Virus record (IMG/VR): IMGVR_UViG_3300008448_000375 | Coordinates: 1-32,068 of that record | From: a virus | Direction: 5' to 3' (one strand) | DNA: 32,068 bases | Shown: positions 1,472-21,178 of the stretch, piece after piece | Numbering within the stretch: position 1 is the first letter of the stretch | Layout: every line of letters starts with the position of its first letter | Notes under the pieces: generated by a model | Database searches by the model: none | Told to the model about the DNA's origin: nothing | What the model saw: the letters and a program-made list of their open reading frames with translations, nothing else | Translations under genes and position numbers: made by a program

Positions 1472-1499
1472 TTGACTATTTATAATATTAGGATATTCT
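1472..1499 (+). promoter_or_regulatory. Candidate promoter for the terminase-portal operon
   Basis: TTGACT (1472-1477), 16 bases, then TATTCT (1494-1499). A perfect TATAAT also occurs at 1481-1486 but has no -35 at proper distance. The -10 lies inside the palindrome at 1485-1504, an arrangement also seen at the capsid promoter. The start codon at 1507 has no Shine-Dalgarno, so the leader must be very short. Confidence 0.45.
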
Positions 1500-1504
1500 A
1501 ATAT
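1485..1504. promoter_or_regulatory. Operator-like palindrome upstream of the small terminase
   Basis: ATATTAG-GATATT-CTAATAT: perfect 7-bp inverted arms with a 6-base spacer, ending two bases before the ATG at 1507. The same arrangement recurs at 20924-20943 (perfect) and 6246-6265 (13 of 14 arm bases), so a dimeric regulator is likely to bind here. Confidence 0.6.
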
Positions 1505-1506
1505 AC

Positions 1507-1908
1507 ATGGATTCAGAGACTCCAGATAAACGGACAGTAAACGGATTAATCCCTCAACCTCATGGGGGAGCTTTAAGAACTTCGGGACCAGGAAGACCGA
1601 AAGGGTCTAGGAACAGGGCAACTGTTATCCGTGAATTCATGGAAGCAAACACCAGAGAAAAAAACCCTTACACAAACGAGGAAATGACAGTCCTCCAAAA
1701 GATTACTCTTTCAATCATAGCTAAGGCGATGAAGGGCGATGTCATGGCGTACAATGCTTTAATGGATAACACTTTTGGGAAACTCAAAGACAAGATCGAA
1801 GTCGAGAACATAGCCGATGAAAACAATCCTCTGAATTTAATGAAGTTGGAGGACTTAGAAGAAATTGCAATTGTTGCAAGAAGAAATCGTAAATCAGATA
1901 GAGCATAA
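1507..1908 (+). CDS. terS: Putative small terminase subunit
   Basis: A 133-residue basic protein directly upstream of and overlapping the large terminase, the usual place for the DNA-recognition subunit of the packaging motor. Residues about 27-40 contain GPGRPKGSRNRAT, an AT-hook-like segment typical of DUF5681-type phage proteins that are often annotated as small terminases. It is followed by helical sequence with QKITLSIIAKAMKGDVMAYN. The assignment rests on position, length and the GRPKGS motif; no packaging site was identified. There is no visible ribosome binding site; the upstream 20 bases are an AT-rich palindrome instead. Confidence 0.7.
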   Translation: MDSETPDKRTVNGLIPQPHGGALRTSGPGRPKGSRNRATVIREFMEANTREKNPYTNEEMTVLQKITLSIIAKAMKGDVMAYNALMDNTFGKLKDKIEVENIADENNPLNLMKLEDLEEIAIVARRNRKSDRA

Positions 1909-3268
1909 ACTCTGGGAAACTGGTAGGCTTAAATTTATCTTACAGGATCATCAAATGGATCTTTGGGAGGCTTTTAATAATTCCAAGACTAAGAAGTATG
2001 TCCTCAACTGTTCAAGACGTTTTGGAAAGTCTTACTTACTTTGTGTCCTAGCCATCGAGCATGCTTTAAAAAATCAATATCATCATATTAGGTTTGCCGC
2101 ACCGACACAAAAACAACTTCGAGAGATTATTCAACCGATCATGGATAAGATTCTTTTAAACTGTCCTGATCAATTCAGACCTGTCTTTAAATCTCAAGAA
2201 TCTTTATATTTTTTTCCATCATCGAACTCATACATACATATAGCAGGATGCGATAATGGTAATGATGAGAACCTCAGAGGACACGAGAGTCATTTTAACA
2301 TCATCGATGAGGCTGGGTTTATTGATAATCTCGAATACTTAATCAAAGATATTTTACAACCTCAGACATTGACCACGGGAGGAAGGACGATCATATCAAG
2401 TACACCTCCATCGAGTCCCGATCATTATTTCCATTCTCTATCTATGGAAGCATCAAGGGAAGGGTATTACATTATAAAGACTATCTATGATAACACTATG
2501 CTATCACTAGACACGATTGAGGAGTATAAAAAAGAAGCAGGCGGGGCAAACTCTTCGACATGGAAAAGAGAATACCTTTGCCAATTTGTTGTGGATGAAT
2601 CAAGAGTGATTATACCTGAGTGGAACGATTCGCACATAGTCACTGATTCAAGGGATAATATGTTCCAATATTATCACAAGTATGTTGCCATGGATATCGG
2701 AGGAAGGGACAAGACAGCGATTCTTTTTGGATATTATGATTTCATGAAGTCTTTACTCTATATCGAAGACGAAGCAATACTTTCGAGGATCAACACAACA
2801 ACAAACGACATTGCTTCCTCAATTAAGGATAAGGAAAGTACTTTAGAATATTCTAATATTCGAATGAGGGTTGCCGATAACAATGCGATCATCATGCTCA
2901 ATGACTTACTCACAGACCACGACCTTCCATTCGTGGCGACTAAGAAGGACGAGCTTCATTCCATGGTCAATAGGCTACGTGTCTTTATAGCCGATGGACG
3001 ATTGAAAGTACACGAAAGATGCAAGGAATTGATAGGGTGTTTAGAATCTGCGATATGGAACAAACAGAGAAGGCAGTTTGATCGATCTGCACTCTATGGT
3101 CATTATGATGCACTAGCGTCTCTAATTTATTTACTGGAAAATCTTGACCAATGGACTAATCCGATCCCACCTCTTTTAGGGATTGACAAAGCAAATACAT
3201 TTGGTATAGAAAGAATATACAACGAGACAGACTCCAAAGAGAATTTAAGAAGGGCATTTAGAAAATGA
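1865..3268 (+). CDS. terL: Terminase large subunit
   Basis: The ATPase-nuclease of the packaging motor, 467 residues, a normal length. Walker A is CSRRFGKS at residues 49-56, preceded by the DHQ adenine-motif region at 28-30. Walker B is FNIIDEAG at 144-151, and the coupling motif SSTP is at 178-181. The C-terminal RNase H-like nuclease carries YVAMDIGGRDKTA, RVADNNAI and GHYDALASL, which hold the expected acidic residues. The start is uncertain. The TTG at 1865 overlaps the small terminase and keeps the Q-motif; GGAGG at 1848-1852 is 12 bases away. The first in-frame ATG, at 1954, would remove the DHQ segment. It overlaps the portal gene by four bases (ATGA). Confidence 0.95.
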   Translation: MQLLQEEIVNQIEHKLWETGRLKFILQDHQMDLWEAFNNSKTKKYVLNCSRRFGKSYLLCVLAIEHALKNQYHHIRFAAPTQKQLREIIQPIMDKILLNCPDQFRPVFKSQESLYFFPSSNSYIHIAGCDNGNDENLRGHESHFNIIDEAGFIDNLEYLIKDILQPQTLTTGGRTIISSTPPSSPDHYFHSLSMEASREGYYIIKTIYDNTMLSLDTIEEYKKEAGGANSSTWKREYLCQFVVDESRVIIPEWNDSHIVTDSRDNMFQYYHKYVAMDIGGRDKTAILFGYYDFMKSLLYIEDEAILSRINTTTNDIASSIKDKESTLEYSNIRMRVADNNAIIMLNDLLTDHDLPFVATKKDELHSMVNRLRVFIADGRLKVHERCKELIGCLESAIWNKQRRQFDRSALYGHYDALASLIYLLENLDQWTNPIPPLLGIDKANTFGIERIYNETDSKENLRRAFRK

Positions 3269-5211
3269 AATACTGGGCAACAGAAGACAAAGACACACTG
3301 GCAAGCGATTTAATGACAAGGGTTCAAAACTATTACAATTATTTAAGATCATCATCATTATTCGATCTTTACAGAAATTCGTATTATAACTACTTCAAAG
3401 CATCTCAACACATGGGAAACGTTTTATGGGTTGGACAAAATGCTGAGTATTCTAATATATCAATCAATCATTATAGAAACTTAATCCAACACAGACTTAC
3501 TCTCACAGTATCACAAAGACCGACATTCCAACCGAGAGCCACAAACACCGATTATAAATCACAAGCACAAGTGAAACTTGCTCATGGTCTTTTAGATTAC
3601 TACATGCGAGAGAAGAAGTTAGAACGATATATTAAGACTGCGGTTGAGTTTGCCTTAGTGTATGGAGAAGGATTCCTTCGAACAGATTGGGATGCACAGA
3701 TTGGAGAGGAATACGGAACGACTGAAAGCGGTGCAATCATTCGAGAAGGGGATATATCATTTAAGAATGGTTCTCCTATGGATATTATTAGGGATCCATT
3801 TGCTAGATCATGGCAAGACAACGATTGGGTAATTATGAGAACATTCCAAAACAAACACACACTGGCGGCTAAGTATCCAGAACTTGCCGATGACATAGTG
3901 GACTTGCAATTTAATTTTAATGATAAACTCAATGACATTATCGACTTCTCTATGTACACACCGTCTCTCTCAATGACTGACATCATTCCAGTTTATGAGT
4001 TTTTCCACAGGGACACAGCGGCTATCTCAGGCGGAAGGATGGTAACATTCTTAGATAATGAATTGGTATTGATTGATTCACCTCTACCTTATAGAGATAT
4101 ACCAGTCTATCGAATCAGTGCCGGTGATATGGACGGAACTCCTTTTGGTTACTCGGTAGCGTTTGACATCATGCCACTACAGAAAGCGATTGATAATCTC
4201 TATTCGACTATTCAGACAAATCAGGAAATGTTTGGAGTTCAAAATATCTTACTCCCAAGAGGATCGAACATAGGACTTGAAGAAATCGGTGGTGGACTTA
4301 ACATCATAGAGTATGACTCACAACTCGGCGCACCATCTCCATTGAACTTAACAAACACTCCGACAGAGATATTTTCTCAGATAAATAAATTAGAGCAAAC
4401 AATGGAAACTCTTTCGGGAGTAAACTCGGTAGCTAGAGGAAACCCAGAGGCATCATTAAAATCTGGATCTGCTTTGGCGTTGGTTGCTTCACAGTCTATT
4501 CAATTCGCTCAGATGTTACAACAGTCTTATACTCAATTATTGGAAGACGTTGGGACAAGTGTTATCAATATCCTAAAGGATTATGCAACAGTTCCGAGGA
4601 TAGCAATGATATCAGGGATTGCCAACCGAGGATATATGAAGGAATTCAAAGGCGATGATTTATCTATGATTAATCGAGTCATCGTTGACATGGGGAACCC
4701 TTTGAGTCAAACAACTTCGGGCAAAGTACAGATTGCAGAGTCATTAATTCAAGGCGGATTTATTAAGAACCCTGAGCAATACATTCAAGTATTAACAACG
4801 GGAAAACTTGATCCATTGATCGAAGGTGAACAGGCTGAACTTTTATTAATCAGAAGCGAGAATGAAAAACTAATTAATCTTGAGCCAGTAAATGCTATCA
4901 TTACAGACAATCACATGATGCACATTCAAGAACACAAGACAGTTCTAGCAAGTCCAGAGGCAAGAGAGAATCCTGAGTTAGTACAGAATGCCCTTGAACA
5001 TATACAAGAACACATTAACCTTCTTAAAACAGGTGATCCTGATGTTCTACAAATGACAGGATCCCAACCTATAAACCCCGCACCTATTAGTCCAGAATTG
5101 ACATCAACACAACCTCCAGTAGTGCAAGCCGCTGAGGAAGTGAATCTTCCAAGAATGCCAACTAATCCGCTAACAGGTGAACAATACAACATACCTAGTG
5201 AGGGAGTATGA
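3265..5211 (+). CDS. Portal protein
   Basis: A 648-residue protein starting at an ATGA overlap with the large terminase and ending at another with the scaffold, the classical terminase-portal-scaffold order. Family-typical sequence includes RNLIQHRLTLTVSQRPTF near residue 75, a GEGFLRTDWD segment near 135, the DPFARSWQD region and LSGVNSVARGNPEASLKSG near 385-405. The C-terminus (about 540-648) is helical and then Pro-rich and probably disordered. It would form the dodecameric ring at the capsid vertex through which DNA enters and leaves. Identification rests on length, context and these motifs. Confidence 0.88.
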   Translation: MKYWATEDKDTLASDLMTRVQNYYNYLRSSSLFDLYRNSYYNYFKASQHMGNVLWVGQNAEYSNISINHYRNLIQHRLTLTVSQRPTFQPRATNTDYKSQAQVKLAHGLLDYYMREKKLERYIKTAVEFALVYGEGFLRTDWDAQIGEEYGTTESGAIIREGDISFKNGSPMDIIRDPFARSWQDNDWVIMRTFQNKHTLAAKYPELADDIVDLQFNFNDKLNDIIDFSMYTPSLSMTDIIPVYEFFHRDTAAISGGRMVTFLDNELVLIDSPLPYRDIPVYRISAGDMDGTPFGYSVAFDIMPLQKAIDNLYSTIQTNQEMFGVQNILLPRGSNIGLEEIGGGLNIIEYDSQLGAPSPLNLTNTPTEIFSQINKLEQTMETLSGVNSVARGNPEASLKSGSALALVASQSIQFAQMLQQSYTQLLEDVGTSVINILKDYATVPRIAMISGIANRGYMKEFKGDDLSMINRVIVDMGNPLSQTTSGKVQIAESLIQGGFIKNPEQYIQVLTTGKLDPLIEGEQAELLLIRSENEKLINLEPVNAIITDNHMMHIQEHKTVLASPEARENPELVQNALEHIQEHINLLKTGDPDVLQMTGSQPINPAPISPELTSTQPPVVQAAEEVNLPRMPTNPLTGEQYNIPSEGV

Positions 5212-6194
5212 GTGAAGCAGAAACAGTAAGTTTTGAATCAACCGAAACAGATTTAATGGGACAAGATTATTTTCCCGAGGATTTTAGTTTTGGTGAAGAA
5301 GTAATTGAACAAACAGAACCAACAGAAACTTTAGAACAAATTAGTGAAGAGATTCCACAGGAACCAGTTCTTTCAAAGTCTTTCAAGGTTGGTGAAAAAG
5401 AATATAGTGTCGATGAAAACACTATAAGAAATTTCTTTCGAATCAAACCAGAAGAGAAACTAGATCAAGCGACATTCAACCGATATGTCACTGGATACAA
5501 AGAACACATCGGACGATCCACTTTAGCAACTGATCTTAATCAAACTAAACAAACCATGGAGTTACTTCTCAAGACTCTCAAAGAAGATCCTGCGAAAGTT
5601 TTGGAACTAGCCGGATACAATCCAAAAGAACTTGCTGAGTCTATACTTTATAAACACCTTGAAGAGGATTTAATGGATCCTTCCGAAAAGGAAAAGATGA
5701 CTCTCAAAAGAGAAAATGAAAGATTAATGAAGCTCGAAGAAGAAAGGCAAAGAGCAGAATTGGAATCAAGACAGAAAGTAGAGCTTGAACAAGCATATCA
5801 ATCTGTCACTCAAGAAATTATATCCGCACTTGATTCGAATCCTGACCTTCCTAAAACACCTAGTACAATTAAAAGAGCAATGTTCTACATGGCAAAGGCG
5901 ATGGAAAAAAATCTCCCGATTAAAGTAGATCAAGTCATGCCATTAGTCCGAGAAGACATTGAGACTGAAAACTTGGCGATGTTAAAGAATGCGACACCTG
6001 AGATGTTAGAAAAATTCTTAGGTGAAAAGAAACTCAAAGAGATCAGACAGCATGATCTCAATCGACTAAAGAAACAAACACCAAGTCCGAAGACTCAACA
6101 AATTGAAAAGCAGGATGTAAAACCTCAGTACATGACTAATGAAGAGTTCAGGAACATGGTACAAGAGAAAATGTCCAAAGTTTTAAAATTCTAG
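5208..6194 (+). CDS. Putative capsid scaffolding protein
   Basis: A 328-residue, strongly charged protein between portal and major capsid genes. The first 50 residues are acidic and low in complexity (ESTETDLMGQDYFPEDFSFG). A FKVGEKEYSVDENTI segment follows at about 58-75. Residues about 150-200 are a long coiled coil (LKRENERLMKLEEERQRAEL), and the C-terminus is basic and helical. Acidic N-terminus, central coiled coil and basic C-terminus are the usual profile of phage scaffolds, which guide capsid assembly and then leave. The stop is followed within 15 bases by a strong terminator. Confidence 0.8.
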   Translation: MSEAETVSFESTETDLMGQDYFPEDFSFGEEVIEQTEPTETLEQISEEIPQEPVLSKSFKVGEKEYSVDENTIRNFFRIKPEEKLDQATFNRYVTGYKEHIGRSTLATDLNQTKQTMELLLKTLKEDPAKVLELAGYNPKELAESILYKHLEEDLMDPSEKEKMTLKRENERLMKLEEERQRAELESRQKVELEQAYQSVTQEIISALDSNPDLPKTPSTIKRAMFYMAKAMEKNLPIKVDQVMPLVREDIETENLAMLKNATPEMLEKFLGEKKLKEIRQHDLNRLKKQTPSPKTQQIEKQDVKPQYMTNEEFRNMVQEKMSKVLKF

Positions 6195-6206
6195 TTTACC
6201 TCTATT

Positions 6207-6234
6207 TAGGGGGGAGAAATCCCCCTATTTTTTT
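6207..6234 (+). terminator. Strong rho-independent terminator between scaffold and capsid genes
   Basis: Stem TAGGGGG (6207-6213) with CCCCCTA (6221-6227), 7-base loop, followed by seven T residues (6228-6234). It ends the terminase-portal-scaffold unit. A TTGACA begins only two bases after the T-run. Confidence 0.93.
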
Positions 6235-6235
6235 C

Positions 6236-6263
6236 TTGACATCGAATATTAGAATGTCATAAT
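6236..6263 (+). promoter_or_regulatory. Promoter of the major capsid operon
   Basis: TTGACA (6236-6241, perfect) with a 16-base spacer and CATAAT (6258-6263), or an 18-base spacer and TAATAT (6260-6265). It lies directly behind the terminator and 134 bases before the capsid start codon, leaving a long leader. Its spacer and -10 are covered by the operator-like palindrome at 6246-6265. Confidence 0.8.
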
Positions 6264-6265
6264 AT
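6246..6265. promoter_or_regulatory. Operator-like palindrome inside the capsid promoter
   Basis: ATATTAG-AATGTC-ATAATAT matches the ATATTAG-N6-CTAATAT pattern at 13 of 14 arm positions and lies between and over the -35 and -10. A second inverted repeat, GAATATT (6244-6250) with AATATTC (6261-6267), overlaps it. Bases 6242-6255 are also the exact reverse complement of 2850-2863 in the large terminase gene. Confidence 0.55.
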
Positions 6266-6314
6266 TCTCAAATTCTAATCCTCTTGCCCTAAGGACTCGT
6301 AAGATTCCACCACT

Positions 6315-6327
6315 GGGGAAGGTGAGG
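6315..6327 (+). repeat. 13-bp leader motif shared with the ERF gene leader
   Basis: GGGGAAGGTGAGG occurs here in the capsid leader and exactly again at 22551-22563 in the leader of the ERF gene. In both places GGGGAA can pair with an upstream TTCC or CTTCCCC. A shared RNA-level control element is possible. Confidence 0.4.
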
Positions 6328-6396
6328 AAAACAAGACTCTCTTTCGAGATTCGACAAAACTCAAAATTAATTAAAGGAAAATTAAAGGAAATTATC

Positions 6397-7656
6397 ATGG
6401 CAGGCGAAACAACAGTAGCAAAACTTAACGGACTATTCAAGTACGTATTCGGCGAAGGGCCGATCAATCTAATCCCACAGAACACAAAACTTTTGAGAGC
6501 AATCCCGCTCCAAAAATCCAAGCCTCTTGGACGTTCTTACATCTTCCCAGTTATCGTCGCTGACGAACAGGGTTCAACTTTCAATACCGACGGATCTGCA
6601 TTTGCATTGAACGACGCAGTATCTATGCAAACCGAAGAAGCAAGTGTTCAAGGTGTTGAGATTGTTTATCGTGGCTCAATCTCTTACAAAGCAGTAAGTG
6701 CCGCAATCAATGACTCTCAAGCATTCGCAAACGCATTGGCTTTGAAAGTAGAAAGACTTTCTGAATCTCATGCAAGAGCGGCTGAGTTCCAACTTCTTTA
6801 CGGAGGATCTGGACTTGGTAATGTTTCTTCATTAACAGGAACCACAGGCGGAACTGCAACCGTTACCGTTACCGATGCAACTTGGGGCGATGGTATCTGG
6901 ACAGGATCTAACGGAATGAAACTTGATTTCTACCGTGCTGACGATTCTACAAAAATTAACTCTGGTGCACTCAGTGTAACTAGTGTGGATTATGACAACA
7001 AAAGAGTAGCCGTTTCTGGTGCTCAATCTGACATCAATCTCTTGACTGGTGCAACTGCTTATCTAGATTATAGAATTTATAAGTATGGTGCAAAGTCCAA
7101 TGAAATGGTTGGTATCAACAAAATCTTGACTACTACTACAGGAACACTCTTTGGAATCAACGTTGGAAGCTATGATTTATTCAAGCCTTCATCATATTCC
7201 ACTACTGGAACTTTGACTTTTGCTAAGATTCAATTAGCGGTAGTTCAGGCAGTAGGTCGTGGTTTAATGGAAGACGTTGTATGTTATGTATCACCTAAAC
7301 AATGGTCTAACCTTACTGCAGATCAAGCATCATTAAGAGATTATGACTATTCATACAATCCTAACAAACTTGAACAAGGTTTCTCACCTAACAACGTAAC
7401 ATTCTATGCGGCTAACGGTAAGATCAGTATCGAACCACATCCGATGGTAAAAAATGGCGATGCGTTCATTTTGCCAATCAACCGTTTCAAGAGAGTGGGA
7501 TCAACTGACATCACTTTCCAAAGACCAGGTAGAAAAGACGATTTCTTCCGTGATCTTGAAAGTTCTGCAGGTTATGAGTTAAGAACTTACTCCGATTTTG
7601 CAATCGTGTGTGAGGCTCCTTCTCGTTGTGTTAAGATTACAGGGTTCACAGCTTAA
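6397..7656 (+). CDS. Major capsid protein (HK97-fold type, inferred)
   Basis: A 419-residue protein in the expected place after the scaffold. The start at 6397 ([12 protein letters not shown]) is chosen because AAAGGA lies about eight bases upstream; the in-frame GTG at 6322 would add 25 unlikely residues. The sequence has the usual capsid features: [15 protein letters not shown] near residue 48, [21 protein letters not shown] (an E-loop or spine-helix type stretch), and a C-terminal [20 protein letters not shown]. Residues about 135-230 are rich in T, G and V with Ig-like or insertion-domain character. It has its own promoter and terminator-insulated leader, so expression can exceed that of the portal and scaffold. 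Codons look more GC-rich at third positions than neighbours, fitting high expression. Confidence 0.88.
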
Positions 7657-8894
7657 TGCCTGTTAGCCTTGGAGCAAATGGGGGTAGTTACAACTACCCT
7701 CAAGAAAATGATCCCGCAGGTTGGGGTGATGATGCGACTAATTGGGCGAGTGCGGTAAGTGCCGCCCTTTCGAATATCGGACTCGGTGGCACAGCGTCTG
7801 CCGATGCCGTTGTCAATATAATCTCAACAACTAAAGGGGTTTTGATTCCTCGGATGACTACTACTCAAAGGAATGCGATTGGTAGTCCTTCGACTTCATT
7901 ATTAATTTACAATACAACTACAACACAATACGAATTGTACACAGGGTCAACTTGGCAATCTTTAGCTTCATATATTAGTGGGACTCTCACTGTCACGGGT
8001 GCGGCTACATTACAAAGTACACTAGCAGTAAATGGCAATACTACACTCGGTGATGCCGGTGGGGACACTCTGACAATCACAGGAAATGCAGTTTCAACAC
8101 CTAACGGATTGAATATTGATTCTAATACTTTGGTTGTCGATGCTACTAATAACCGTGTTGGCGTTGTGACAGCTTCTCCAACAGTTGCTTTAGATATTAC
8201 AGGAGATATTAAGGCAAGTTCAACTATTCAATCTGCGAATGGAACTGCTACAGCTCCAGGAATTACATTCAGTGGGGATACCAATACAGGTATCTATAAT
8301 ATAGCGGCTGATACTATTGGCTTTAGTGCTAACGGAGCAGAGAGTGCGAGAATAGATTCTCAAGGTATTGAAATAATAGATGGTACTGCGGCGGCTCCAA
8401 GTTTAGCATTCAGTTCTGATCCTGATACTGGTGTATTTAGACCAGGTGCAAACCAATTTAGCATTGCTACAGGTGGAGTAGAACGATTCAGAATTGAATC
8501 AACTGGTCAGATTAAAGCAGTTTATGAATCACAAGTTGGAACTGATTATAATACTACTTTAGATAATGGTTATTTTTGTAGAGCTTGGGCATTATTTAAC
8601 GGGAATGATAATACTATTTATGCATCTGGAAATATAAGTTCGATAAGCAATGTAACATATAGTGGTAGAAAACAAATAAATCTTACTTCTCCTTTACCTG
8701 ATTCAAATTATGTAATTACTACATCAGCAGGGAAATTAGATTATAATGGTGGTAATGCTCCAAGATTACAGGCATTATCTAGTGGTGTGACATCAAATAC
8801 GTCTCAAATTGGAGTAGAATATGGTTATGTTACCACTTCAGCAACTGCGGGACTTACAACAGATGCTTATTTAGGGATAATGGTATTTAGATGA
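7656..8894 (+). CDS. Tail fibre or receptor-binding protein
   Basis: A 412-residue protein starting at a TAATG junction with the capsid gene. After an N-terminal part that probably anchors to the particle, residues 61-102 carry a motif widespread in fibres ([15 protein letters not shown] then YELYTGSTW). Residues 196-240 and 243-285 are imperfect tandem repeats of the form GTA.AP...FS.D..TG. Residues about 290-412 are a C-terminal domain with [13 protein letters not shown] and ISSISN, known from many fibre tips. From about base 8526 the DNA becomes visibly more AT-rich, suggesting the tip domain was exchanged. Two small genes of the fibre-assembly kind follow directly. Confidence 0.85.
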
Positions 8895-9157
8895 AAAGAA
8901 TAATATATAATTCAGAAATTGGTTTAATTATAATGACACCAAATAAATTTATCGAAGATGAATTTAAAAATGCAATAATGATTGGTGAAAAAGATGTTCC
9001 ATTTGGAATAAAATTTAAAATAATTGATTCATCAGACATACCAACCGAACCGATGGAAACATGGGAATTTGATTTATCTAACCCTAATGGGATAGGACTT
9101 TCACCTGAAGAATTTTATGCCAAATACCCTGAATACAAAAGATGGGCAGTTCAATGA
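8891..9157 (+). CDS. Small protein next to the fibre gene, possibly fibre-associated, 88 aa
   Basis: An ATGA overlap with the fibre stop codon indicates translational coupling. The protein is acidic and soluble, with [19 protein letters not shown] near the N-terminus and [20 protein letters not shown] near the C-terminus. The latter resembles the IDSSDIPT...[10 protein letters not shown] region seen in small phage genes downstream of fibres, which are sometimes called fibre-assembly proteins. No enzymatic motif is seen. Base composition is as AT-rich as the fibre tip, consistent with both having been acquired together. Confidence 0.7.
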
Positions 9158-9351
9158 TTATTGTAAATCAAGATAAATTAAAAAAACTGAATGATGAGAA
9201 GCGAATTAAAGAATTACAAACTTTATTGAATGATTCTGATTTTCGCATGAGTAAAGATTATTTCGATCAAATGTCATCTCAAGACCAAGACAAGTGGACT
9301 AAACAACGTAAAGCATGGAGAGATGAAATAAGAGGATTAAATGCCAATTAA
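9154..9351 (+). CDS. Putative tail-fibre assembly chaperone-like protein (Phage_tail_APC-like)
   Basis: A 65-residue protein starting at 9154 in an ATGA overlap with the previous stop; an in-frame ATG at 9142 would add four residues. The C-terminal half, with LLNDSDFRMSK followed by DKWTKQRKAWRDEIRGLN, resembles the short phage tail assembly chaperone-like domain (RxxLLxxxDW ... W...R.ALRD) common after fibre genes. It probably assists folding or attachment of the fibre, by analogy. The match is by eye and the length is typical. Confidence 0.65.
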   Translation: MIIVNQDKLKKLNDEKRIKELQTLLNDSDFRMSKDYFDQMSSQDQDKWTKQRKAWRDEIRGLNAN

Positions 9352-9493
9352 ATCAACTAAACAACTCAGGCTTATGCTAGGTGTAGCAAATAGTCCATCC
9401 TTTGCGAAGAAAGTAGGAATAAAACAATCTATAGGAAAGGAGATGGTTTCAAAGACTCCCAAGAAGAAAATGAAATCATTATTAAAGAAATGA
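9341..9493 (+). CDS. Small lysine-rich protein, 50 aa
   Basis: Overlaps the preceding gene by 11 bases and the next by four (ATGA). The product is MPIKSTKQLRLMLGVANSPS and then a strongly basic tail ending KTPKKKMKSLLKK. It has the composition of small nucleic-acid-binding or packaged basic proteins. No named family is recognised. It belongs to a run of four short genes (9154-9881) in the capsid operon, two very basic and then one very acidic. Confidence 0.6.
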   Translation: MPIKSTKQLRLMLGVANSPSFAKKVGIKQSIGKEMVSKTPKKKMKSLLKK

Positions 9494-13231: not shown

Positions 13232-13640
13232 AATACCCGCAGTAAAATCAATTAGAATTGAAGATATTTCTCCAGAGGCTCCTCAGTGGATAAATAATTT
13301 ATTAAGCCCATTGAATTCATTCATGGAAAATATATATTCTGCATTAATTAGAAACATTACATTCACCGACAACATTGCTTGCATGATAAAAGATATAGAA
13401 TTTAGAACTTTATCAACTTATACTTCTCAAGGATTCGATGCGATCAATATAACTAATACACTAAAAACATCGGCTCAAGGTTTGTTTATTATGCAATTAT
13501 ACAACTCCTCAGACCCTTACTCTATAATTACAAATGCCACAACACCTTTTTGGCTTGACGACAACGGAATTATCAAGATACAATATATCACAGGACTTGC
13601 AAATTCGACTCAGTATAAAGGGAAGGTATTAATAATATAA
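13224..13640 (+). CDS. Putative tail-associated structural protein, 138 aa
   Basis: Overlaps the large tail protein gene by eight bases and meets the next gene at TAATG. The sequence has WINNLLSPLNSFMENIYSAL near residue 22 and a beta-rich remainder ending GLANSTQYKGKVLII. Similar small proteins (LN.F...+..AL...ITF.+N) are often found after the tail nozzle gene in podoviruses, without assigned function. It is probably a virion component judged by operon position. No catalytic motif, signal peptide or membrane segment is present. Confidence 0.7.
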   Translation: MAKIPAVKSIRIEDISPEAPQWINNLLSPLNSFMENIYSALIRNITFTDNIACMIKDIEFRTLSTYTSQGFDAINITNTLKTSAQGLFIMQLYNSSDPYSIITNATTPFWLDDNGIIKIQYITGLANSTQYKGKVLII

Positions 13641-14914
13641 TGGCTTACATCATAGGAACGAAACGACCAGAAACTCAAGGAGAGCCTCAACAATTAGTTT
13701 CGGGAACTCCGTCAATGTTGGGACAAGGATCAACTGGAGTTCAAGCTCAAACAGGACAAGCCGCACCTTCTACGTTTACTAATCTTCAAAGGTATATCGA
13801 AGCCAATCAAGGAAATGTCGGTGGACTTGCTCAAGCTATCGAATCAAAAAAATCCTCTATTGAAAATCCATTTCAACAAGCGAAAACAGAAGCGGAAATA
13901 GCAAAACAAAATGTACAAAGTGCGATTGAAGGAAGAGGACAAGCTGAATCAAGTTTGAAAGCGGCGGTTGAAAAAGCAAGAACAGCTCCATCAACACTAG
14001 GAGCGGAGGAAGTTAAGAACATCCGAAACCTTGCAACAACTTTTAATTATGATCCATCACAAGTCTTGACACCACTAACAACAGCAGTAGCGGGGTTAGG
14101 TGGGAAAGCTCAGACATCTGCGGCAGGATTAGAAAACCTTGCAACAAGAGAAGGACAAAGACAAGCACTCATAGAAGCAAGACAAGCTCCACGTTCTTCA
14201 CTTGGTGGATTAGAACTAGACACTTTCCTACTTGGTGCGAGTCCAGAAGCACAATCAAGAGTACAGGCTTTGAATTTACCAACAAGAGCGAATGAATTAA
14301 GACAAGCACTTACGCCATTCCAAGAAAACATCACAGAGTTTCAAAAAACTAAAGGACTCACATCGGCTGATATACAAAATTTATTGACTGGTCAACAAAA
14401 AGCCGTTGCCTCTGAATTAGAAACTTCATTACCTTCTTTGATTGAAGAAAAAGCAAAACAAAATATAAATTTTGGAACACGACTTGCGAGAAGGCAAGCA
14501 TTACCAGGAGAGATTGAAAATCTAAGAACACAACTTGGTGAAATCAATAAACCATCTGACATAGATTTATTGACATCCCAACAACAAAGACAAAATATGC
14601 TGAGTGATTTTTTTTCATTAGCAACGCCTGAAAACCTTGGTGCATCTGTTTCGGGTTCAGGTGGAACCGTTAGACCGACAATGACAGAAACAGAAACAGC
14701 AAAAAGAGAAAGACTTAGACAAGCAAAACAAAATGAAATAAATGCTTTATTGAGCGAACAGGAAGGACTTTCGAATCTCGAAAAAGAACTAGCGACACAA
14801 AAAGCCGGTATCACTTACGGACAAGCACTAAGCCCTGAGCAAATCGCAAGATACACAGCGTTCGCACAACTAGCAGGACTTGATCCAACACAATTTTTAG
14901 GAAGGGTATCATAA
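13640..14914 (+). CDS. Putative internal virion / ejection protein, 424 aa
   Basis: A Gln-, Ala- and Ser-rich protein, mainly helical with long low-complexity coiled-coil stretches (AKTEAEIAKQNVQSAIEG near residue 80 and RERLRQAKQNEINALLSEQE near 355). It lies in the position of the ejection proteins of P22-like and T7-like phages, proteins packed inside the capsid and injected ahead of the DNA. Sequence similarity to a named family is not recognised, so the role is inferred from order and composition. It is coupled to the next gene by overlap at 14914. Confidence 0.65.
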   Translation: MAYIIGTKRPETQGEPQQLVSGTPSMLGQGSTGVQAQTGQAAPSTFTNLQRYIEANQGNVGGLAQAIESKKSSIENPFQQAKTEAEIAKQNVQSAIEGRGQAESSLKAAVEKARTAPSTLGAEEVKNIRNLATTFNYDPSQVLTPLTTAVAGLGGKAQTSAAGLENLATREGQRQALIEARQAPRSSLGGLELDTFLLGASPEAQSRVQALNLPTRANELRQALTPFQENITEFQKTKGLTSADIQNLLTGQQKAVASELETSLPSLIEEKAKQNINFGTRLARRQALPGEIENLRTQLGEINKPSDIDLLTSQQQRQNMLSDFFSLATPENLGASVSGSGGTVRPTMTETETAKRERLRQAKQNEINALLSEQEGLSNLEKELATQKAGITYGQALSPEQIARYTAFAQLAGLDPTQFLGRVS

Positions 14915-16002
14915 TGGCAACACTCGGGCAAATTTTAGGTACAGATACAACAGCCGCAGAAAATCAATACATTCAACAAATGCTTGGTACTTTGGCACTA
15001 CAACCCAAAGCTCCAACACTTGAACAGATCAACCTTCCACAGTATGGTGTAGGTGAACAGTTTCAATATGTCGGTGACTTTACTCCAGAGATGTTATCTG
15101 CAACGGAGTTAAGAGATCTTTTAATATCTCCTGAACTTCGTGCTCAAGAAATGGCAACACTCGACCAACTTAATCAAATCGTTTCAGGTGGTGGACTAAC
15201 TGACATTGATCGTGCAAGACTAGCAGAGATTAGAGCACAACAAGCCGCACAAGAAAGAGGCGGAAGACAAGCTATCCTTCAAGGAATGGCTCAACGTGGT
15301 CTTGGTGGTGGTGGAAGTGAATTAGCGGCTTACCTACAATCACAACAATCTGGAGCAGACCGTGCGGCGTTAGAAGGTGCACAGGTAGCCGCAGAAGCAC
15401 AGTCTAGACAACTACAAGCAGGATTACAAAGAGCGGGACTAGCGGGAAATATTGGCGAACGTGACTATACAAGACAAGCTCAAAAAGCAGAAGCTCAAGA
15501 TATTATTAATCGGTTTAATGTTCAAAATAAAAACTTAGCTCAAATGTCTAACCTTGAGAAACAACAAGCAATTTCTAATTTGAACAAACAACTAGCTCAA
15601 GCGAATATTGACACAAGACAGAGACAGGAGATTATGAATAAACTCCAAATCCCTATGTCTCAATATGGACTGACATCACAAGAGTCTGGAACCAAGCTAG
15701 GCTTATTAGGTCAAGCGGCTGGAACTAGGTTACAAGGTGCACAACAAAGAGCACAACAGATGCAACAGTTAATCGGAACAGGAATCCAGGCTGGTGCAAC
15801 TTACCTCGGTGGACCTGCTGGTGGTTTAGTAGTTGGAAATACTTTTATTCCTGGAGCAGAATCAAGAGGAAGTCAACTATTGAATACTTTATCATCTTCA
15901 AGTTATAATCCAATGAATTGGTTTTCATCACAACCAGCTACGACTGCTCAACCAGCTAACACTGCACAGCCAGCTACTACTCAAACTGGCGTTAGGAGAT
16001 AA
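14914..16002 (+). CDS. Putative internal virion / ejection protein, 362 aa
   Basis: A Gln- and Ala-rich helical protein. The region about 100-150 reads RAQQAAQERGGRQAILQGMA then QRGLGGGGSELAAYLQ, a Gly-rich hinge of the type found in many phage structural proteins of this position. Residues about 185-240 are coiled coil. Near residues 288-305 the sequence GAGATYLGGPAGGLVVGNTF-like Gly/Ala stretch is amphipathic and could insert into a membrane. The C-terminus is a Thr/Ala/Pro repeat (QPATTAQPANTAQPATTQ) that is probably disordered. The gene abuts the next ejection candidate at 16005. Function is inferred from context. Confidence 0.65.
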   Translation: MATLGQILGTDTTAAENQYIQQMLGTLALQPKAPTLEQINLPQYGVGEQFQYVGDFTPEMLSATELRDLLISPELRAQEMATLDQLNQIVSGGGLTDIDRARLAEIRAQQAAQERGGRQAILQGMAQRGLGGGGSELAAYLQSQQSGADRAALEGAQVAAEAQSRQLQAGLQRAGLAGNIGERDYTRQAQKAEAQDIINRFNVQNKNLAQMSNLEKQQAISNLNKQLAQANIDTRQRQEIMNKLQIPMSQYGLTSQESGTKLGLLGQAAGTRLQGAQQRAQQMQQLIGTGIQAGATYLGGPAGGLVVGNTFIPGAESRGSQLLNTLSSSSYNPMNWFSSQPATTAQPANTAQPATTQTGVRR

Positions 16003-16004
16003 CA

Positions 16005-17264
16005 ATGTCTGAAACTAATTTTAAAGATTTTACAGAAGATGAATTTCAAAAGTATTTTATTAATACATTAAGATCAGAAGGTACTTCTCCAACAGATATT
16101 TATGGAAGACAATTAGCTGATAGAGAATTATTAAATCTTACTAATCCAAATAAAAATGCAACTGGTGGAAAAGGTCTTGATCCTTTTACCCAAGCTGTTG
16201 CTGGAACTGTTGCAAATCGTGCTATTGATTATATGATAAATCCTAAAGTTTCAGAAACTACAACGACTCAATCAATTCCATCACAAATCCCTCAGATGCC
16301 TCAACAGTATGATACTTCTCCCTATCGTGCCCTTGACATTATAGGTGCTGGTATTGCTAGAAGACCAACTCAGGAAGGTTATTTCAATCAACTTGAGAAA
16401 ATGCAAAACGCAAGATTGGAAGACGCTTATAACAGAAGAACTGATACCGACGAGGCGAAGAATCTACAAGGATTGATCCAAAAAACATTTCCTAATTTAG
16501 ATAAAGATATCGTTTCCAAAATATCTCCTGACTACTTTTCGAAGAATTATCCATTGATTGCACAGATAGCAGAAAGAGAAACAAGTGCAATGTCTAAAGC
16601 TACTGGAGATCAAGAAGCTAAACAATTCATCAAAGAATTCTATCCAGAAATAAATCAAAAACAATTAAATTTAGTTAATGCTACAAACTATAAAGAGATT
16701 GCTAAAAAATTTGATGATATAAGAGCAAAAAAAGCAGTAAACCCACAAGCAAAAAAACTTGATGCAACTACTTTAAGAAAATCCCAAGAAGATGAAAATG
16801 CTACACTATCATATATAAATAAACTAAATGATATGAAAAAGTATATTGATTCAAATGGATTTAGTGTAAATGATGTTGAACTTGGAAATAAATATGCTGA
16901 TTTTTTAGCCGCATATAAAGAAGTAAACAAACTCGGTGCTTTGGATAGTGGAGTCCTACAATTAGTCAATAAAGCATTACCTGACCCAACAAGTTTGACA
17001 AGTTTCGGAAAAGATATTTTTTCATCTGATTTTAAGAATAATTATTTAAAAACAATAGATGAAATAAGCAAAAAATCAATAGATAGTTTTGCGAATTACT
17101 CTTCTATTACGGGTTATGAGCCAAAAGTCTTAACAAATAAATATTTAGAAAATCTAAAGGGTAATGAAAAAAAACAAAAATATGAAGAGGGTCAATTTTA
17201 CCCAGATGGTAAGGGTGGATATTTTAAATGGATGAATGGGAAAGCTGTCCCAGTTCCGAAGTGA
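16005..17264 (+). CDS. Putative internal virion / ejection protein, 419 aa
   Basis: A soluble, charged protein beginning MSETNFKDFTEDEFQKYFIN, three bases after the previous stop. It has a Pro/Gln-rich linker near residues 85-105 (SIPSQIPQMPQQYD) followed by helical sequence, and ends with GQFYPDGKGGYFKWMNGKAV. The last segment resembles a short beta motif found at the ends of phage structural proteins. The base composition is more AT-rich than the two upstream genes. No family is recognised; virion or ejection role is inferred from its place between such genes. Confidence 0.6.
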   Translation: MSETNFKDFTEDEFQKYFINTLRSEGTSPTDIYGRQLADRELLNLTNPNKNATGGKGLDPFTQAVAGTVANRAIDYMINPKVSETTTTQSIPSQIPQMPQQYDTSPYRALDIIGAGIARRPTQEGYFNQLEKMQNARLEDAYNRRTDTDEAKNLQGLIQKTFPNLDKDIVSKISPDYFSKNYPLIAQIAERETSAMSKATGDQEAKQFIKEFYPEINQKQLNLVNATNYKEIAKKFDDIRAKKAVNPQAKKLDATTLRKSQEDENATLSYINKLNDMKKYIDSNGFSVNDVELGNKYADFLAAYKEVNKLGALDSGVLQLVNKALPDPTSLTSFGKDIFSSDFKNNYLKTIDEISKKSIDSFANYSSITGYEPKVLTNKYLENLKGNEKKQKYEEGQFYPDGKGGYFKWMNGKAVPVPK

Positions 17265-17271
17265 GTAAACA

Positions 17272-18966
17272 ATGCCAGAAAAAATAACAGATCCAAAATT
17301 AATAAAAGAACTAGAAAGCAAAATGGGAAATGTTCCTGCTCCTGTTACAGATCCTAAATTAATAGAAGAGCTTAAAAATAAAGTCAATCCACCTAAGTCT
17401 TTATTGGAAAATATAGGAAGTAAATACAAAGCATTCTCTGAATCATTGGTTGAATCCATACCTGGAGCGACTCAGGCATTAAGTGCAATCGAAGCTCCTC
17501 TCCGTGGAATGTCTTATGATGAATTAGTCAGGAATACAAGAGCGGCACAGCAAAAAGCAAAAACAGAGGAACCGATGGCTTATGAAACTGCTCAAGCTCT
17601 AGCCATTGCTGGTCCTATGGCGGCAAGTATGGGGACATCGGCTGTCCCTAGTTTAGCGAAAGCGGCTCTTCCTACTTTAGCAAAATCAGTAGGTGCAGGG
17701 ATGGGACTTGGGTATCTCAATTCTGCTTTTGATCCTACTAAAGATGTTATGACAGAAACCGCACTAGGTGGAAGTATCCCTCTCACAATGAGAGCAGGGG
17801 GAAAGACTGCGAAGTTTGTTTATAATACTGGAAAGAATGCTCTTGAATGGGGAACTGGACAACTCTTTAATATTAGTCCAGAAGTACTTGGTAAATTGAG
17901 AGCAAACCCAAACTTGATTGATCAAATAAGTCAACTTCCATACGATCAACAAAAAGTCATGAATGACTATGTGAAGTTTTTTGAAAATTCTCCATATAGG
18001 AAAAGAGAGCAACAGGCTTTTGACAAAGCTGTTCAAGTATTCAATAAACCTCAAAATCTAAAAAAGACTATAGATTTAAAAATAGTTCAAGATGAGATTA
18101 ATAAAGCGTATGAAAATGTTCCTAAGGTCATGGGAAAAGCAGATACTCAATATCTAAAAGATGTTGATGATTATGCTGATAGATTCCGAGCAAAAGGAAA
18201 AGTTACTCCTCAAGAGGCTTTGGATATTTTAAGGTCTTTATATGCTGACACCAACTTTGGAGATTATGCACAAAAGACAGATAAGACTAATAACTTATTA
18301 AAAAATATTACTGCAAAATTACGCTCTGAAATTGGAAAACAAGTTCCTGAATATAATGTTTTAGCAAAAGATATGGAAAAAAATATTGTTGCCGCTAAGG
18401 AAATTGAATCAAAGTTTTTTAACGAAAAAATGAAAGATGTCTCTAAGATGTCTGGAACTTCTGCTAGGGTAGAACCTAAAAGCGTTGAAAGATTTATCAC
18501 AGAAGCAATGAAACCCACAAAGTCAGGTGAACCAAGTTCTGAATTTTTAAAAGCTCAGGAATACGGGAAAGAAATCGGCTATGGTAATTTCGGGGACATA
18601 GCAGAAAACGTGAGAATGCAGAATTACTTAGAATCAAGAAAAAATCAAGGTTCCAATATCATGTCACGTTTTGGACTTATGGGACTAGCAGGAGCATCAA
18701 TGGTTGATGATCCATTACTCAAAGGATTGATGATTGGAACTTCTGGTCTAGCAGGTGCGGCGGCTGAGCAAAAAGGCGGCAAAGCGGCTGGATATATCAT
18801 GAAGGGGATCAATGCTCCTGAAGAGATTATCAAAAAAGTTGGGAATACAAAATATGGTGCTCAGCTTAAAGATGCACTCTCAAAAGGAAATAAATCCTTT
18901 GCGACTACTCATTATCTTCTCTTACAAAGAGATCCAGAATACAGAAAACAAATAGAGGAAGAATAA
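17272..18966 (+). CDS. Putative DNA ejection protein with membrane-active region, 564 aa
   Basis: Last long gene of the virion block. The N-terminus carries two copies of TDPKLI.EL..K (residues about 4-16 and 24-36). Residues about 100-165 are Ala/Gly-rich (ALAIAGPMAASMGTSAVPSL then VGAGMGLGYLNSAF) and near 470-500 there is another such stretch (MSRFGLMGLAGASMVDD), both suited to membrane insertion. The rest is helical. This profile resembles the large injected proteins of podoviruses that help DNA cross the cell envelope. No lytic transglycosylase motif was found, so it is not a gp16-type murein hydrolase by eye. It overlaps the next gene at 18966 (TAATG). Confidence 0.65.
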   Translation: MPEKITDPKLIKELESKMGNVPAPVTDPKLIEELKNKVNPPKSLLENIGSKYKAFSESLVESIPGATQALSAIEAPLRGMSYDELVRNTRAAQQKAKTEEPMAYETAQALAIAGPMAASMGTSAVPSLAKAALPTLAKSVGAGMGLGYLNSAFDPTKDVMTETALGGSIPLTMRAGGKTAKFVYNTGKNALEWGTGQLFNISPEVLGKLRANPNLIDQISQLPYDQQKVMNDYVKFFENSPYRKREQQAFDKAVQVFNKPQNLKKTIDLKIVQDEINKAYENVPKVMGKADTQYLKDVDDYADRFRAKGKVTPQEALDILRSLYADTNFGDYAQKTDKTNNLLKNITAKLRSEIGKQVPEYNVLAKDMEKNIVAAKEIESKFFNEKMKDVSKMSGTSARVEPKSVERFITEAMKPTKSGEPSSEFLKAQEYGKEIGYGNFGDIAENVRMQNYLESRKNQGSNIMSRFGLMGLAGASMVDDPLLKGLMIGTSGLAGAAAEQKGGKAAGYIMKGINAPEEIIKKVGNTKYGAQLKDALSKGNKSFATTHYLLLQRDPEYRKQIEEE

Positions 18967-19145
18967 TGGAACACATTATCACAGTTTTTATTTTTATAGC
19001 GACAGTAGTGGTAGGATACTTTTCAGTCGTGAGAGAACATGAAAATAGAATTGTTAGACTGGAAACTAGATTGGACTCAATCAATGAGATGATGAGCGAG
19101 ATGCGAGCTGACATCAAGGAACTACTAAAACGTGACAAAACTTAA
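18966..19145 (+). CDS. Small membrane-anchored coiled-coil protein, 59 aa
   Basis: An N-terminal transmembrane helix (residues 4-22, ITVFIFIATVVVGYFSVV) is followed by a charged coiled coil with regular hydrophobic spacing (RIVRLETRLDSINEMM then MRADIKELLKR). It overlaps the lysis peptidase gene by 14 bases, so it belongs to the lysis group. The topology recalls a very short inner-membrane spanin or an XhlA-like accessory protein, but it is too short to be sure. A second 59-residue protein with the same layout lies at 31685-31864. Confidence 0.7.
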   Translation: MEHIITVFIFIATVVVGYFSVVREHENRIVRLETRLDSINEMMSEMRADIKELLKRDKT

Positions 19146-19707
19146 AAAATATCTCAAAGATAAATACAAATTAAACTCCACTCAATGGACTATCGTCGGC
19201 ATACGTGGTTTTGATTATGTTGATGGTAAGTTTGTCCAGAATAGTGATGAGATAGATCAATTTAATGATACTGTCTTGATAATGAAAGGAACTGAGGTGA
19301 GAGCGTATAGAGCAACCCTCGATCCTGGATTGACTTGGATTTTAAAACCTATGGCTGGTATTCTCGGAGCCGCTAGACTAGAGGAAGGATGCTACATGTA
19401 CCAACGAGGTAAACACAAGGGACATGATGCATTTATTCAGGCTGGTAAAGTAACTATTCGAAGAGATAAGAACAAAGATAAGAAGTGGACTATGGACGAA
19501 GAACAAGAAAGCGGATTTTTTGGAATTCATATTCATGCAAGATTCTCCTCTGGAAAGGTTGGGACGAACTCCGCAGGATGTACTGTCCTAGATTCTTTAT
19601 GGGATCAAAAAGACTGGAAAGAATTTCAAACTTTACTTTATTCTAGTTCACAAACAATTTTTCCTTATGTAGTAATTAATCAAGAAACGATGGATGGATT
19701 ATGTTAA
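19132..19707 (+). CDS. Putative endolysin: YkuD-like (L,D-transpeptidase-fold) peptidase with EF-hand-like loop
   Basis: A 191-residue protein starting at GTG within the previous gene. Residues 131-150 hold GIHIHARF ... VGTNSAGC, close to the catalytic pattern of YkuD-fold enzymes (His, then S.GC with Cys150). Similar phage and bacterial proteins carry FGINIH ... WSAGC. Residues 112-123 (DKNKDKKWTMDE) fit a 12-residue EF-hand calcium loop with D1, N3, D5 and E12. As no lysozyme or amidase was found elsewhere and a holin-like gene follows, this is the best endolysin candidate. It would cut peptidoglycan cross-links. There is no signal peptide, so release through a holin is expected. Confidence 0.72.
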   Translation: MTKLKKYLKDKYKLNSTQWTIVGIRGFDYVDGKFVQNSDEIDQFNDTVLIMKGTEVRAYRATLDPGLTWILKPMAGILGAARLEEGCYMYQRGKHKGHDAFIQAGKVTIRRDKNKDKKWTMDEEQESGFFGIHIHARFSSGKVGTNSAGCTVLDSLWDQKDWKEFQTLLYSSSQTIFPYVVINQETMDGLC

Positions 19708-19889
19708 AGAACTATTATAAACCAACTCCCGCAAAATATAGAAAACTTGGTGATGCTATCCTCGCCTCATCGACTGCAATGACTTTTGTTGGGATTCAAA
19801 CCGATGACAAGATTATAATGTATTTCTTTTTAATCCTTGGAACCGTTGGAAAGTTTTTGACTAATTTTTACACCGAGAGGGAAAAATGA
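19701..19889 (+). CDS. Holin-like membrane protein, 62 aa
   Basis: A short protein with a charged N-terminus (MLKNYYKPTPAKYRKLGDAI) and two hydrophobic segments, about residues 19-33 (AILASSTAMTFVGIQ) and 38-56 (KIIMYFFLILGTVGKFLTNF), ending in YTEREK. The pattern KYYKPTPxKxRKLGDALLAxS ... LxLGxxGKFLTNFF is one I recognise from phage holin-like proteins. Overlaps the putative endolysin by seven bases and the next gene by three. It would open the inner membrane for endolysin release; function is inferred from family resemblance and neighbours. Confidence 0.72.
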   Translation: MLKNYYKPTPAKYRKLGDAILASSTAMTFVGIQTDDKIIMYFFLILGTVGKFLTNFYTEREK

Positions 19890-20399
19890 ATGTCGCTATT
19901 GAAAGGTATTTTATCCCTATTATTCACTCCGATACTAGAATTTTTAATCTTAATTTTAGCTTTGTTCTCAGTTCTAATCATAGCTCCCGCTATCGTGTTG
20001 TGCAAGATCTTAATGGAGAAATCATTAAAGATGGCTTTACATCCATGGATGACGCTCTGGATTTTGTTCGCTATCATGAATATATGTTGTCGGACGATTG
20101 AGATCCAACCTGCGAGTGAGACAATAAACGCATCGATTAAGTTAGCCGAGACTATCGAAGATCCTATAAAAAAGGAAGTAATATCTTCTTCGCTCAAAGA
20201 CATGAAGGCAACGATAAAGACCCAAAGTGAAATCATTGAACAATACCAAAAAGACTTAGAGGATGCTAGACTCAAGGCAGAAGAAGCACAGAAAGCGAAA
20301 GGGTTAGTGGATGGGATTGTTACGATATTCTGGAGTATCATTGCACTCGGTGGAATTTATTTTTTAATTAAAATTATTAAAAGGATGGGGTTTGTATGA
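19890..20399 (+). CDS. Membrane protein with coiled coil in the lysis cluster, 169 aa
   Basis: Hydrophobic residues about 5-42 and 50-66 form one to three membrane segments, followed by a charged helical stretch (about 95-140, IIEQYQKDLEDARLKAEEAQ) and a final hydrophobic helix (about 143-162). It starts directly after the holin-like stop. A competing frame at 19886-20101 overlaps it and is less protein-like. An internal ATG near 20034 would give a shorter product beginning MALHPWMTLWILFAIMN, resembling a signal-anchor protein, so the true start is uncertain. A spanin-like or second holin role is possible. No family is recognised. Confidence 0.65.
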   Translation: MSLLKGILSLLFTPILEFLILILALFSVLIIAPAIVLCKILMEKSLKMALHPWMTLWILFAIMNICCRTIEIQPASETINASIKLAETIEDPIKKEVISSSLKDMKATIKTQSEIIEQYQKDLEDARLKAEEAQKAKGLVDGIVTIFWSIIALGGIYFLIKIIKRMGFV

Positions 20400-20485
20400 A
20401 ACTCAAATCAAAAAAAGCTCAGGCGATATATAAGACTGGACAAATATACGCTTCCAAAATAAAAAAAGTATCTGTATCAAAATAA
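20396..20485 (+). CDS. Basic micropeptide, 29 aa
   Basis: Starts in an ATGA overlap with the previous gene. It reads MKLKSKKAQAIYKTGQIYAS and ends KIKKVSVSK, with nine lysines in 29 residues. It fills the space between two genes that would otherwise be non-coding. Function unknown. Coupling and context support it, its size argues for caution. Confidence 0.45.
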   Translation: MKLKSKKAQAIYKTGQIYASKIKKVSVSK

Positions 20486-20495
20486 GGAGGTTATC

Positions 20496-20564
20496 ATGAA
20501 AAAGGCTAAAAAAGTAAAACCAATGTCTGGAAAAAAAGCACCTAGCGTTTCCAAGAAATGCTAA
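20496..20564 (+). CDS. Basic micropeptide, 22 aa, with near-perfect ribosome binding site
   Basis: AAGGAGG (20484-20490) stands five bases before the ATG, one of the best ribosome binding sites in the window. The product is MKKAKKVKPMSGKKAPSVSK followed by KC. Its stop overlaps the start of the LpxA-like gene (ATGCTAA at 20558-20564). It could be a functional peptide, or a translated leader that delivers ribosomes to the acyltransferase gene, which has no Shine-Dalgarno of its own. Confidence 0.55.
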   Translation: MKKAKKVKPMSGKKAPSVSKKC

Positions 20565-21178
20565 ATCAAATTCACCCCACTGCCATAATAAGCGATTCCG
20601 TGAAAATTGGCAGTGGGAACTATATCGGAGCTTACTCAATTATATCAGGCGATACAGAGATCGGTGATAATAATTACATCGCTTCTCATTCTGTCATTGG
20701 ATCACCTGCGGAACATAAAGATTATTTTGGTATTATAGGAAAAGTCATTATAGGGAATAATAATCGAATCAATGAATTTACGACGATAAATCAAGGGACA
20801 AAAAAACCCACTATTCTTCATGATAATATAGTAATGCTAAGAGGCGCCCATATAGGTCATGATTCTGAGATATATGACAACGTAACTATTTCATGTAATG
20901 TAATGATTGGTGGTCATTCAACTATATTAGAATATGCTAATATAGGACTAGGTGCGGTCTTACATCAATATAGCGTCATCGGGTCAGTGTGTATGGTTGG
21001 AATGGGTGCGGTTGTGATTAAGTCTTCCGAGGCTCGCCCTTGTATTACAATCGGAGGAACTCCCGCAAGGTTCATTAAAAAAAATATTGTCGGAATGATA
21101 CGTGCAAATGTTACTAACCAAGACCTTGAAGACCTGAATAAAAAATATGAAAGTTTACGTACACACTCTCGCCTTTAA
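20558..21178 (+). CDS. LpxA-like acyltransferase (left-handed beta helix)
   Basis: A 206-residue hexapeptide-repeat protein. It opens QIHPTAIISDSVKIGSGNYI as in UDP-N-acetylglucosamine acyltransferase (LpxA), continues with IGSPAEHKDYFG, and keeps the catalytic-type HIGHD (His98 and His101), GGH at 118-120, and LHQYSVIGSVCMVGMGAVV, followed by GGTPARFIKKNIVGM. E. coli LpxA is 262 residues; here the C-terminal helical domain is cut short. The enzyme family transfers an acyl chain from ACP to the sugar of lipid A. In a phage it may alter lipid A or another acylated sugar. It overlaps the next glycosyltransferase by 32 bases. An operator-like palindrome lies inside the gene at 20924-20943. Confidence 0.88.
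   Translation: MLNQIHPTAIISDSVKIGSGNYIGAYSIISGDTEIGDNNYIASHSVIGSPAEHKDYFGIIGKVIIGNNNRINEFTTINQGTKKPTILHDNIVMLRGAHIGHDSEIYDNVTISCNVMIGGHSTILEYANIGLGAVLHQYSVIGSVCMVGMGAVVIKSSEARPCITIGGTPARFIKKNIVGMIRANVTNQDLEDLNKKYESLRTHSRL
20922..20945. promoter_or_regulatory. Perfect palindrome inside the LpxA-like gene, third copy of the operator pattern
   Basis: CTATATTAG-AATATG-CTAATATAG: 9-bp perfect arms and a 6-base spacer, containing ATATTAG-N6-CTAATAT at 20924-20943. The spacer resembles those of the other copies. It lies within coding sequence and has no clear -35 beside it, so it might be a silencer or decoy site or partly constrained by the protein. Confidence 0.45.

Follow-up and report, generated by a model that had tools for sequence, protein, structure and literature searches.

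An operator-like family of dispersed 20-bp palindromes in a small tailed phage, with one copy over the capsid promoter

Three known systems come closest to the sites analysed here. The cI/cro operators of lambda-type phages are repeated palindromes of ~17–20 bp that overlap phage promoters and cluster at divergent repressor genes. LexA (SOS) boxes, CTGT-N8-ACAG or GAAC-N4-GTTC, likewise put a dyad on a promoter. In Cluster A mycobacteriophages (L5, Bxb1), the stoperators are dispersed sites for a repressor and specific to one phage lineage; one is at a promoter and the rest fall in transcribed regions (PMC6550527, PMC9283540). Each stoperator is 13 bp long and asymmetric; they occur in large numbers and mostly share a single orientation (PMC6550527). 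Here we analyse a family of four symmetric 20-bp sites in a virus record from a metagenome, IMG/VR record IMGVR_UViG_3300008448_000375, taken as one window of 32,068 nucleotides. An earlier note, made from the letters alone, had seen in it a palindrome ATATTAG-N6-CTAATAT and proposed a late-gene regulon switched by a dimeric regulator.

The comparison shows partial likeness to each system. Like the lambda-type operators, the sites form a repeated palindrome of about that length and overlap a phage promoter. However, they lie at 1485, 2840, 6246 and 20924, spread over 19 kb of the late region instead of being clustered at divergent repressor genes; the target is the capsid promoter, and no CI or Cro gene is recognised in the window. 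With the stoperators they share the dispersed arrangement, in which a promoter carries one site and transcribed regions carry the rest, and the restriction to one phage lineage. They differ in being four in number, symmetric and 20 bp long, and no repressor of the stoperator-type family is recognised in the window. As for LexA, a dyad lies over a promoter and the window has a gene for a LexA-type DNA-binding domain, but the palindrome is unlike the known boxes and the LexA-like protein has no dimerising protease domain.

A scan for the arms returns exactly the four copies listed in the earlier note: two without mismatch at 1485-1504 and 20924-20943, one with a single mismatch (13/14) at 6246-6265, and a degraded one with two mismatches (12/14) at 2840-2859 (Table 1). 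An additional arm match with two mismatches is found at 20428, but its spacer is unlike the other four. The spacers had been described as alike, and this can be taken further. One perfect 20-bp palindrome, ATATTAGAATATTCTAATAT, matches all four copies with no more than three mismatches, so the spacers are part of the motif and this 20-mer is the true unit. Copies 2 and 4 agree in the centre and also in the arms.

Table 1. Palindrome copies and features discussed in the text.
Feature	Position	Strand	Remarks
Copy 1, ATATTAGGATATTCTAATAT	1485..1504		In the 38-bp gap from rha to the small terminase start (1507); arms 0 mismatches, 20-mer 1
Copy 2, ACTTTAGAATATTCTAATAT	2840..2859		Within the large terminase gene (terL), encodes TLEYSNI; arms 2 mismatches, 20-mer 2
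Copy 3, ATATTAGAATGTCATAATAT	6246..6265		Over the capsid promoter; arms 1 mismatch, 20-mer 3
Copy 4, ATATTAGAATATGCTAATAT	20924..20943		Within the LpxA-like gene, encodes ILEYANI(G); arms 0 mismatches, 20-mer 1
Intrinsic terminator	6207..6227	+	Stem-loop then T run; closes the terS-terL-portal-scaffold unit
Capsid promoter	6236..6263	+	TTGACA-N16-CATAAT; -35 6236-6241, -10 6258-6263; 11/12 match
Extra inverted half-site TTCTAAT	6273..6279		3' of the -10; kept in L004; may belong to the site
Rha/KilAC (phage_pRha + ANT) regulator gene	800..1468	+	Adjoins copy 1; PF09669 3e-20, PF03374 7e-14
Small terminase-like gene (terS)	1507..1908	+	3' of copy 1; DUF5681 match below curated cut-off; precedes terL
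Major capsid-like gene	6397..7656	+	3' of the copy-3 promoter; comes after the portal and scaffold genes; 88% identity in L004
LexA-type winged-helix DNA-binding domain	29433..29633	+	66 amino acids, no protease domain; second candidate binder; PF01726 7e-17; 3k2z LexA 1e-11

The four-copy family exceeds chance. Perfect copies of the 14 arm bases are expected 0.003 times per dinucleotide-shuffled genome, and sites within three mismatches of the 20-mer 0.01 times; once the centre is included, the observation is stronger than the earlier note had estimated. Since the arm word had been picked after looking, all words were searched. Any 7-bp dyad word with a spacer of 0-12 reaches at least two perfect and at least three near-perfect copies (at least two perfect plus one near-perfect) in 0.7% of shuffles. 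When only the ~1.5 kb between genes is considered, 0.9% of shuffles contain a dyad that recurs at ≤1 mismatch, which is the P = 0.009 of the intergenic pair 1485 and 6246 by itself. Our family search then took every near-palindromic 20-mer and was run against three null models, 7,695 shuffled genomes in all. Four-copy families of any palindromic 20-mer are found in 0 of 2142 dinucleotide, 0 of 2283 local dinucleotide and 0 of 3270 codon-plus-intergenic (protein-preserving) shuffles, and three-copy families in 0.3-1.1%.

Among 83 real phage loci of at least 10 kb, the same search finds four copies in none and a single three-copy family, at 8420-9283 of locus L036. There, three copies of AATTTAAGATATCTTAAATT flank a helix-turn-helix (CI-type) repressor gene with an adjoining small Cro-like gene, as in the lambda-type systems, and are likely the operators of that prophage. 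Because the sole family in a real locus surrounds a cI/cro-like pair, it serves as an unplanned positive control that the search picks up genuine operators. The full G003 record gives three copies of a low-complexity A/T palindrome, and the loci of the relatives hold no 20-bp palindrome family of their own with three or more copies. Chance as the full explanation is rejected by the three null models and the 83 real loci.

Copy 3 is the strongest of the four and overlaps a conserved capsid promoter. This promoter is of the sigma-70 type, with -35 and -10 hexamers at a spacing within 16-18 bp, and its TTGACA starts eight bases past the terminator stem-loop. Together with its flanks (6244-6267), copy 3 forms a perfect 8+8 dyad, GAATATTA-N8-TAATATTC, which fills the promoter spacer and the -10 and so lies within the polymerase footprint. 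The 8+8 dyad is retained in the only close relative found, L004, and missing in distant relatives. The single departure of the right arm from the consensus, C14 to A, is present in both phages and moves TCTAAT towards TATAAT, as expected of an operator that overlaps a -10. The earlier note had described a TTGAC -35 with the palindrome on the -10 at two places. This is borne out at 6236 but not convincingly at 1472, where the candidate promoter TTGACT-16-TATTCT matches at 9/12 and 43 such matches were found against 46.8 expected by chance. The distance from TTGAC to the dyad also differs, being 8 bases at 1472 and 5 at 6236.

L004 comprises 5.4 kb with 79% DNA identity and is colinear with 2465-7828. 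The arms of copies 2 and 3 are kept in it. Its capsid site, TTGACATCGAATATTAGAAAGTTATAATATTC, has both arms intact with altered spacer bases, and its -10 is improved to TATAAT, which gives a 12/12 promoter. From TTGACA through TTAGAA, L004 does not differ from the window. Bases between -35 and -10 that polymerase does not need are also unchanged, and the surrounding intergenic region is less conserved. In terL, the L004 copy has one mismatch, and its inner codons TTA GAA TAT TCT AAT are 5/5 unchanged (P ~0.05 from codon conservation). The portal gene carries a half-copy, TATTCTAATAT, at 3448-3458, which encodes the same peptide EYSNI; here L004 has changed TCTAATATA to TCAAACATC and the silent positions are not conserved.

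The wider family has TTGACA ~150-170 bases 5' of the capsid start, often behind a terminator, in counts that are not independent since the loci are related. Outside L004, 1.1 Mb of portal relatives hold 0 sites at ≤3 mismatches to the 20-mer and six at ≤4. As the wider family has TTGACA without the palindrome, the palindrome is this lineage's addition to an older promoter. The promoter-plus-dyad pattern run over IMG/VR matched L004 alone, searches with the small terminase and the LpxA-like gene gave no further motif-bearing relatives, and a scan of genome contigs gave only distant portals, in two contigs of metagenome-assembled genomes (MAGs). Several relatives have terminator-like stems at ~-180 to -206 relative to the capsid start. 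TTGACA at ~-165, often after a terminator, can be seen in L006, L054-L056, L058, L059, L061, L063, L065 and L066 (e.g. TTGACAAATAAAAATAGTATGGCAAAATTC).

The explanation we favour, with somewhat better than even confidence, is that the four copies are operators of one dimeric DNA-binding protein which recognises ATATTAGAATATTCTAATAT and probably represses the capsid promoter, the other copies being roadblock or accessory sites. A dimer bound to the 6246 site would block RNA polymerase, because this site fills the promoter spacer and the -10; from established promoter knowledge, repression is the simplest reading of a dyad so placed. Capsid transcription would then be repressed in a carrier state, or during infection until its late phase. 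The other three copies (1485, 2840 and 20924), within the transcribed late region, would most likely act as elongation roadblocks or as accessory or looping sites, not as further promoters. Thus the regulon proposed earlier stands in part. There is a real repeated dyad over a conserved capsid promoter, with arms unchanged in L004, but a two-promoter late regulon is unsupported, because the 1472 promoter is at chance level, two copies are intragenic (terL and LpxA-like) and L004 stops short of the terS site. What we have is a family of operator-like sites, one of which is well supported as a promoter site.

Several points weigh against this interpretation. L004 is the sole close relative in the collections and spans just two of the sites (2840 and 6246). 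The palindrome, which the earlier note expected at the same promoter in close relatives, is there in L004 but is absent at portal identity ≤54%, where the terminator-TTGACA arrangement is kept. Other good promoters in the window, 22124-22151 (TTGACA-16-TATATT) and 31972-31999 (TTGACA-16-TATCAT), carry no palindrome. There is no sign of autoregulation, as no regulator gene has a site before it. Finally, once protein and codon usage are taken as given, the probability of a coding copy is P = 0.03 for a perfect match and P = 0.20 at ≤1 mismatch, so 20924 could be chance, as could each coding copy taken alone.

These coding probabilities bring in the rival that survives best, a mixed origin, in which 1485 and 6246 are a real operator pair and the coding copies are chance products of the AT-rich codons for LEYSNI and LEYANI. 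Taken alone, the intergenic pair reaches significance, and the LpxA-like copy is compatible with an ordinary hexapeptide-repeat stretch. We consider this rival unlikely, since a four-copy 20-mer family occurs in no shuffle, the 3,270 protein-preserving ones included. A purely coding origin of the arms is possible for single copies but disfavoured for the set. The terL codons are frozen in L004 whereas the portal EYSNI codons have drifted, and together with the set-level test this favours the coding copies as family members. On these sequence comparisons we hold, with moderate confidence, that the copies at 2840 and 20924 belong to the family.

A less probable rival dispenses with a regulator. 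The capsid gene would have a plain sigma-70-type promoter whose AT-rich -10 region is self-complementary by accident, and the other copies would be chance. It would account for the wider family conserving promoter and terminator but not the palindrome; AT-rich -10-like words such as TAATAT and ATATTA pair mutually, and three-copy families do turn up in shuffles. However, four copies turn up in 0 of the 7,695 shuffles and 0 of the 83 real loci, and the bases conserved in L004 reach beyond the -35 and -10. It is very improbable that the inverted repeats act as mRNA hairpins, for instance hiding the message start of the small terminase at 1507. Copy 1 ends two bases 5' of the ATG, an 8-bp hairpin can fold from it (-5.5 kcal/mol when the flanks are included), and copy 4 folds at -8.7, but copies 1-3 fold no better than shuffles (z -0.95, -0.55 and -1.47), the 6246 site is 5' of the expected start and hence untranscribed from the capsid promoter, and no Rfam family matched. 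The least probable rival is a pac- or cos-type packaging signal read by the small terminase, which would suit copy 1 adjoining terS and copy 2 within terL, but packaging sites are normally a single locus, whereas the copies here include one at a distance of 19 kb, and the best conserved of them is 4.7 kb off, exactly within a promoter.

If a dimeric repressor does bind the palindrome, the candidates would be the phage Rha/KilAC protein, the LexA-like domain of the phage, another phage protein that went unrecognised, or a factor of the host. The earlier note had put forward the first two and a host factor; we find no sequence or fold evidence that ties either Rha/KilAC or the 66-residue LexA-like protein to this DNA. 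Rha/KilAC is a candidate by position only. No match to the 20-mer at ≤4 mismatches is found in 605 kb around 37 rha homologues; as these homologues are 25-64% identical, Rha specificity may differ between phages. The AlphaFold model of Rha (mean predicted local distance difference test, pLDDT, 78.7; predicted template modelling score, pTM, 0.43) has a predicted C-terminal region of helices followed by a beta hairpin. Its fold matches in the PDB are mostly winged-helix MarR/PadR proteins, none of them significant (best E 0.04), and it has no sequence relative there. In the literature searched we found neither this palindrome nor an operator for Rha/KilAC. A GGAGG at 790 suggests that rha starts at ATG 800 rather than at the opening of the open reading frame at 788. 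Directly 5' of rha there is a strong GC-rich terminator-like stem (758-781).

We regard it as doubtful, with the odds clearly against it, that this phage, without a recognisable CI, controls its late capsid stage through dispersed symmetric operators (the capsid promoter and late-gene roadblocks) read by a Rha/KilAC-type protein. If true, a widespread protein family that is poorly understood would acquire a DNA target and a function in controlling late genes. The palindrome, if real, would be an exact DNA bait for a regulator of capsid expression in small uncultured phages, and would test whether Rha/KilAC proteins bind DNA. A blind search for palindrome families is itself able to recover operator sets from one metagenomic phage genome at a time.

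The window represents a small tailed phage. Because of an exact 78-bp direct terminal repeat (1-78 = 31991-32068), the genome is probably complete, with ~31,990 bp, circular or terminally redundant. Its genes include rha, the small and large terminase, a P22-like portal, a presumed scaffold and the capsid; tail genes, holin/lysin and two sugar-related genes follow. After these come genes for an ERF recombinase, a PD-(D/E)XK nuclease, replication protein O, NinB, RusA, HNH and the LexA-type DNA-binding domain. An LpxA-like hexapeptide acyltransferase gene and its glycosyltransferase-like neighbour occupy 20558-21863, and another sugar-transferase-like gene is found at 30711-31700; the three are possibly surface-modifying cargo. 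The LpxA-like gene gave no close relative in the IMG/VR search. Both palindrome-free promoters are intergenic. The one at 31972-31999 runs into the terminal repeat, and the one at 22124-22151 has AGTATGGTTA in common with the L006 capsid promoter.

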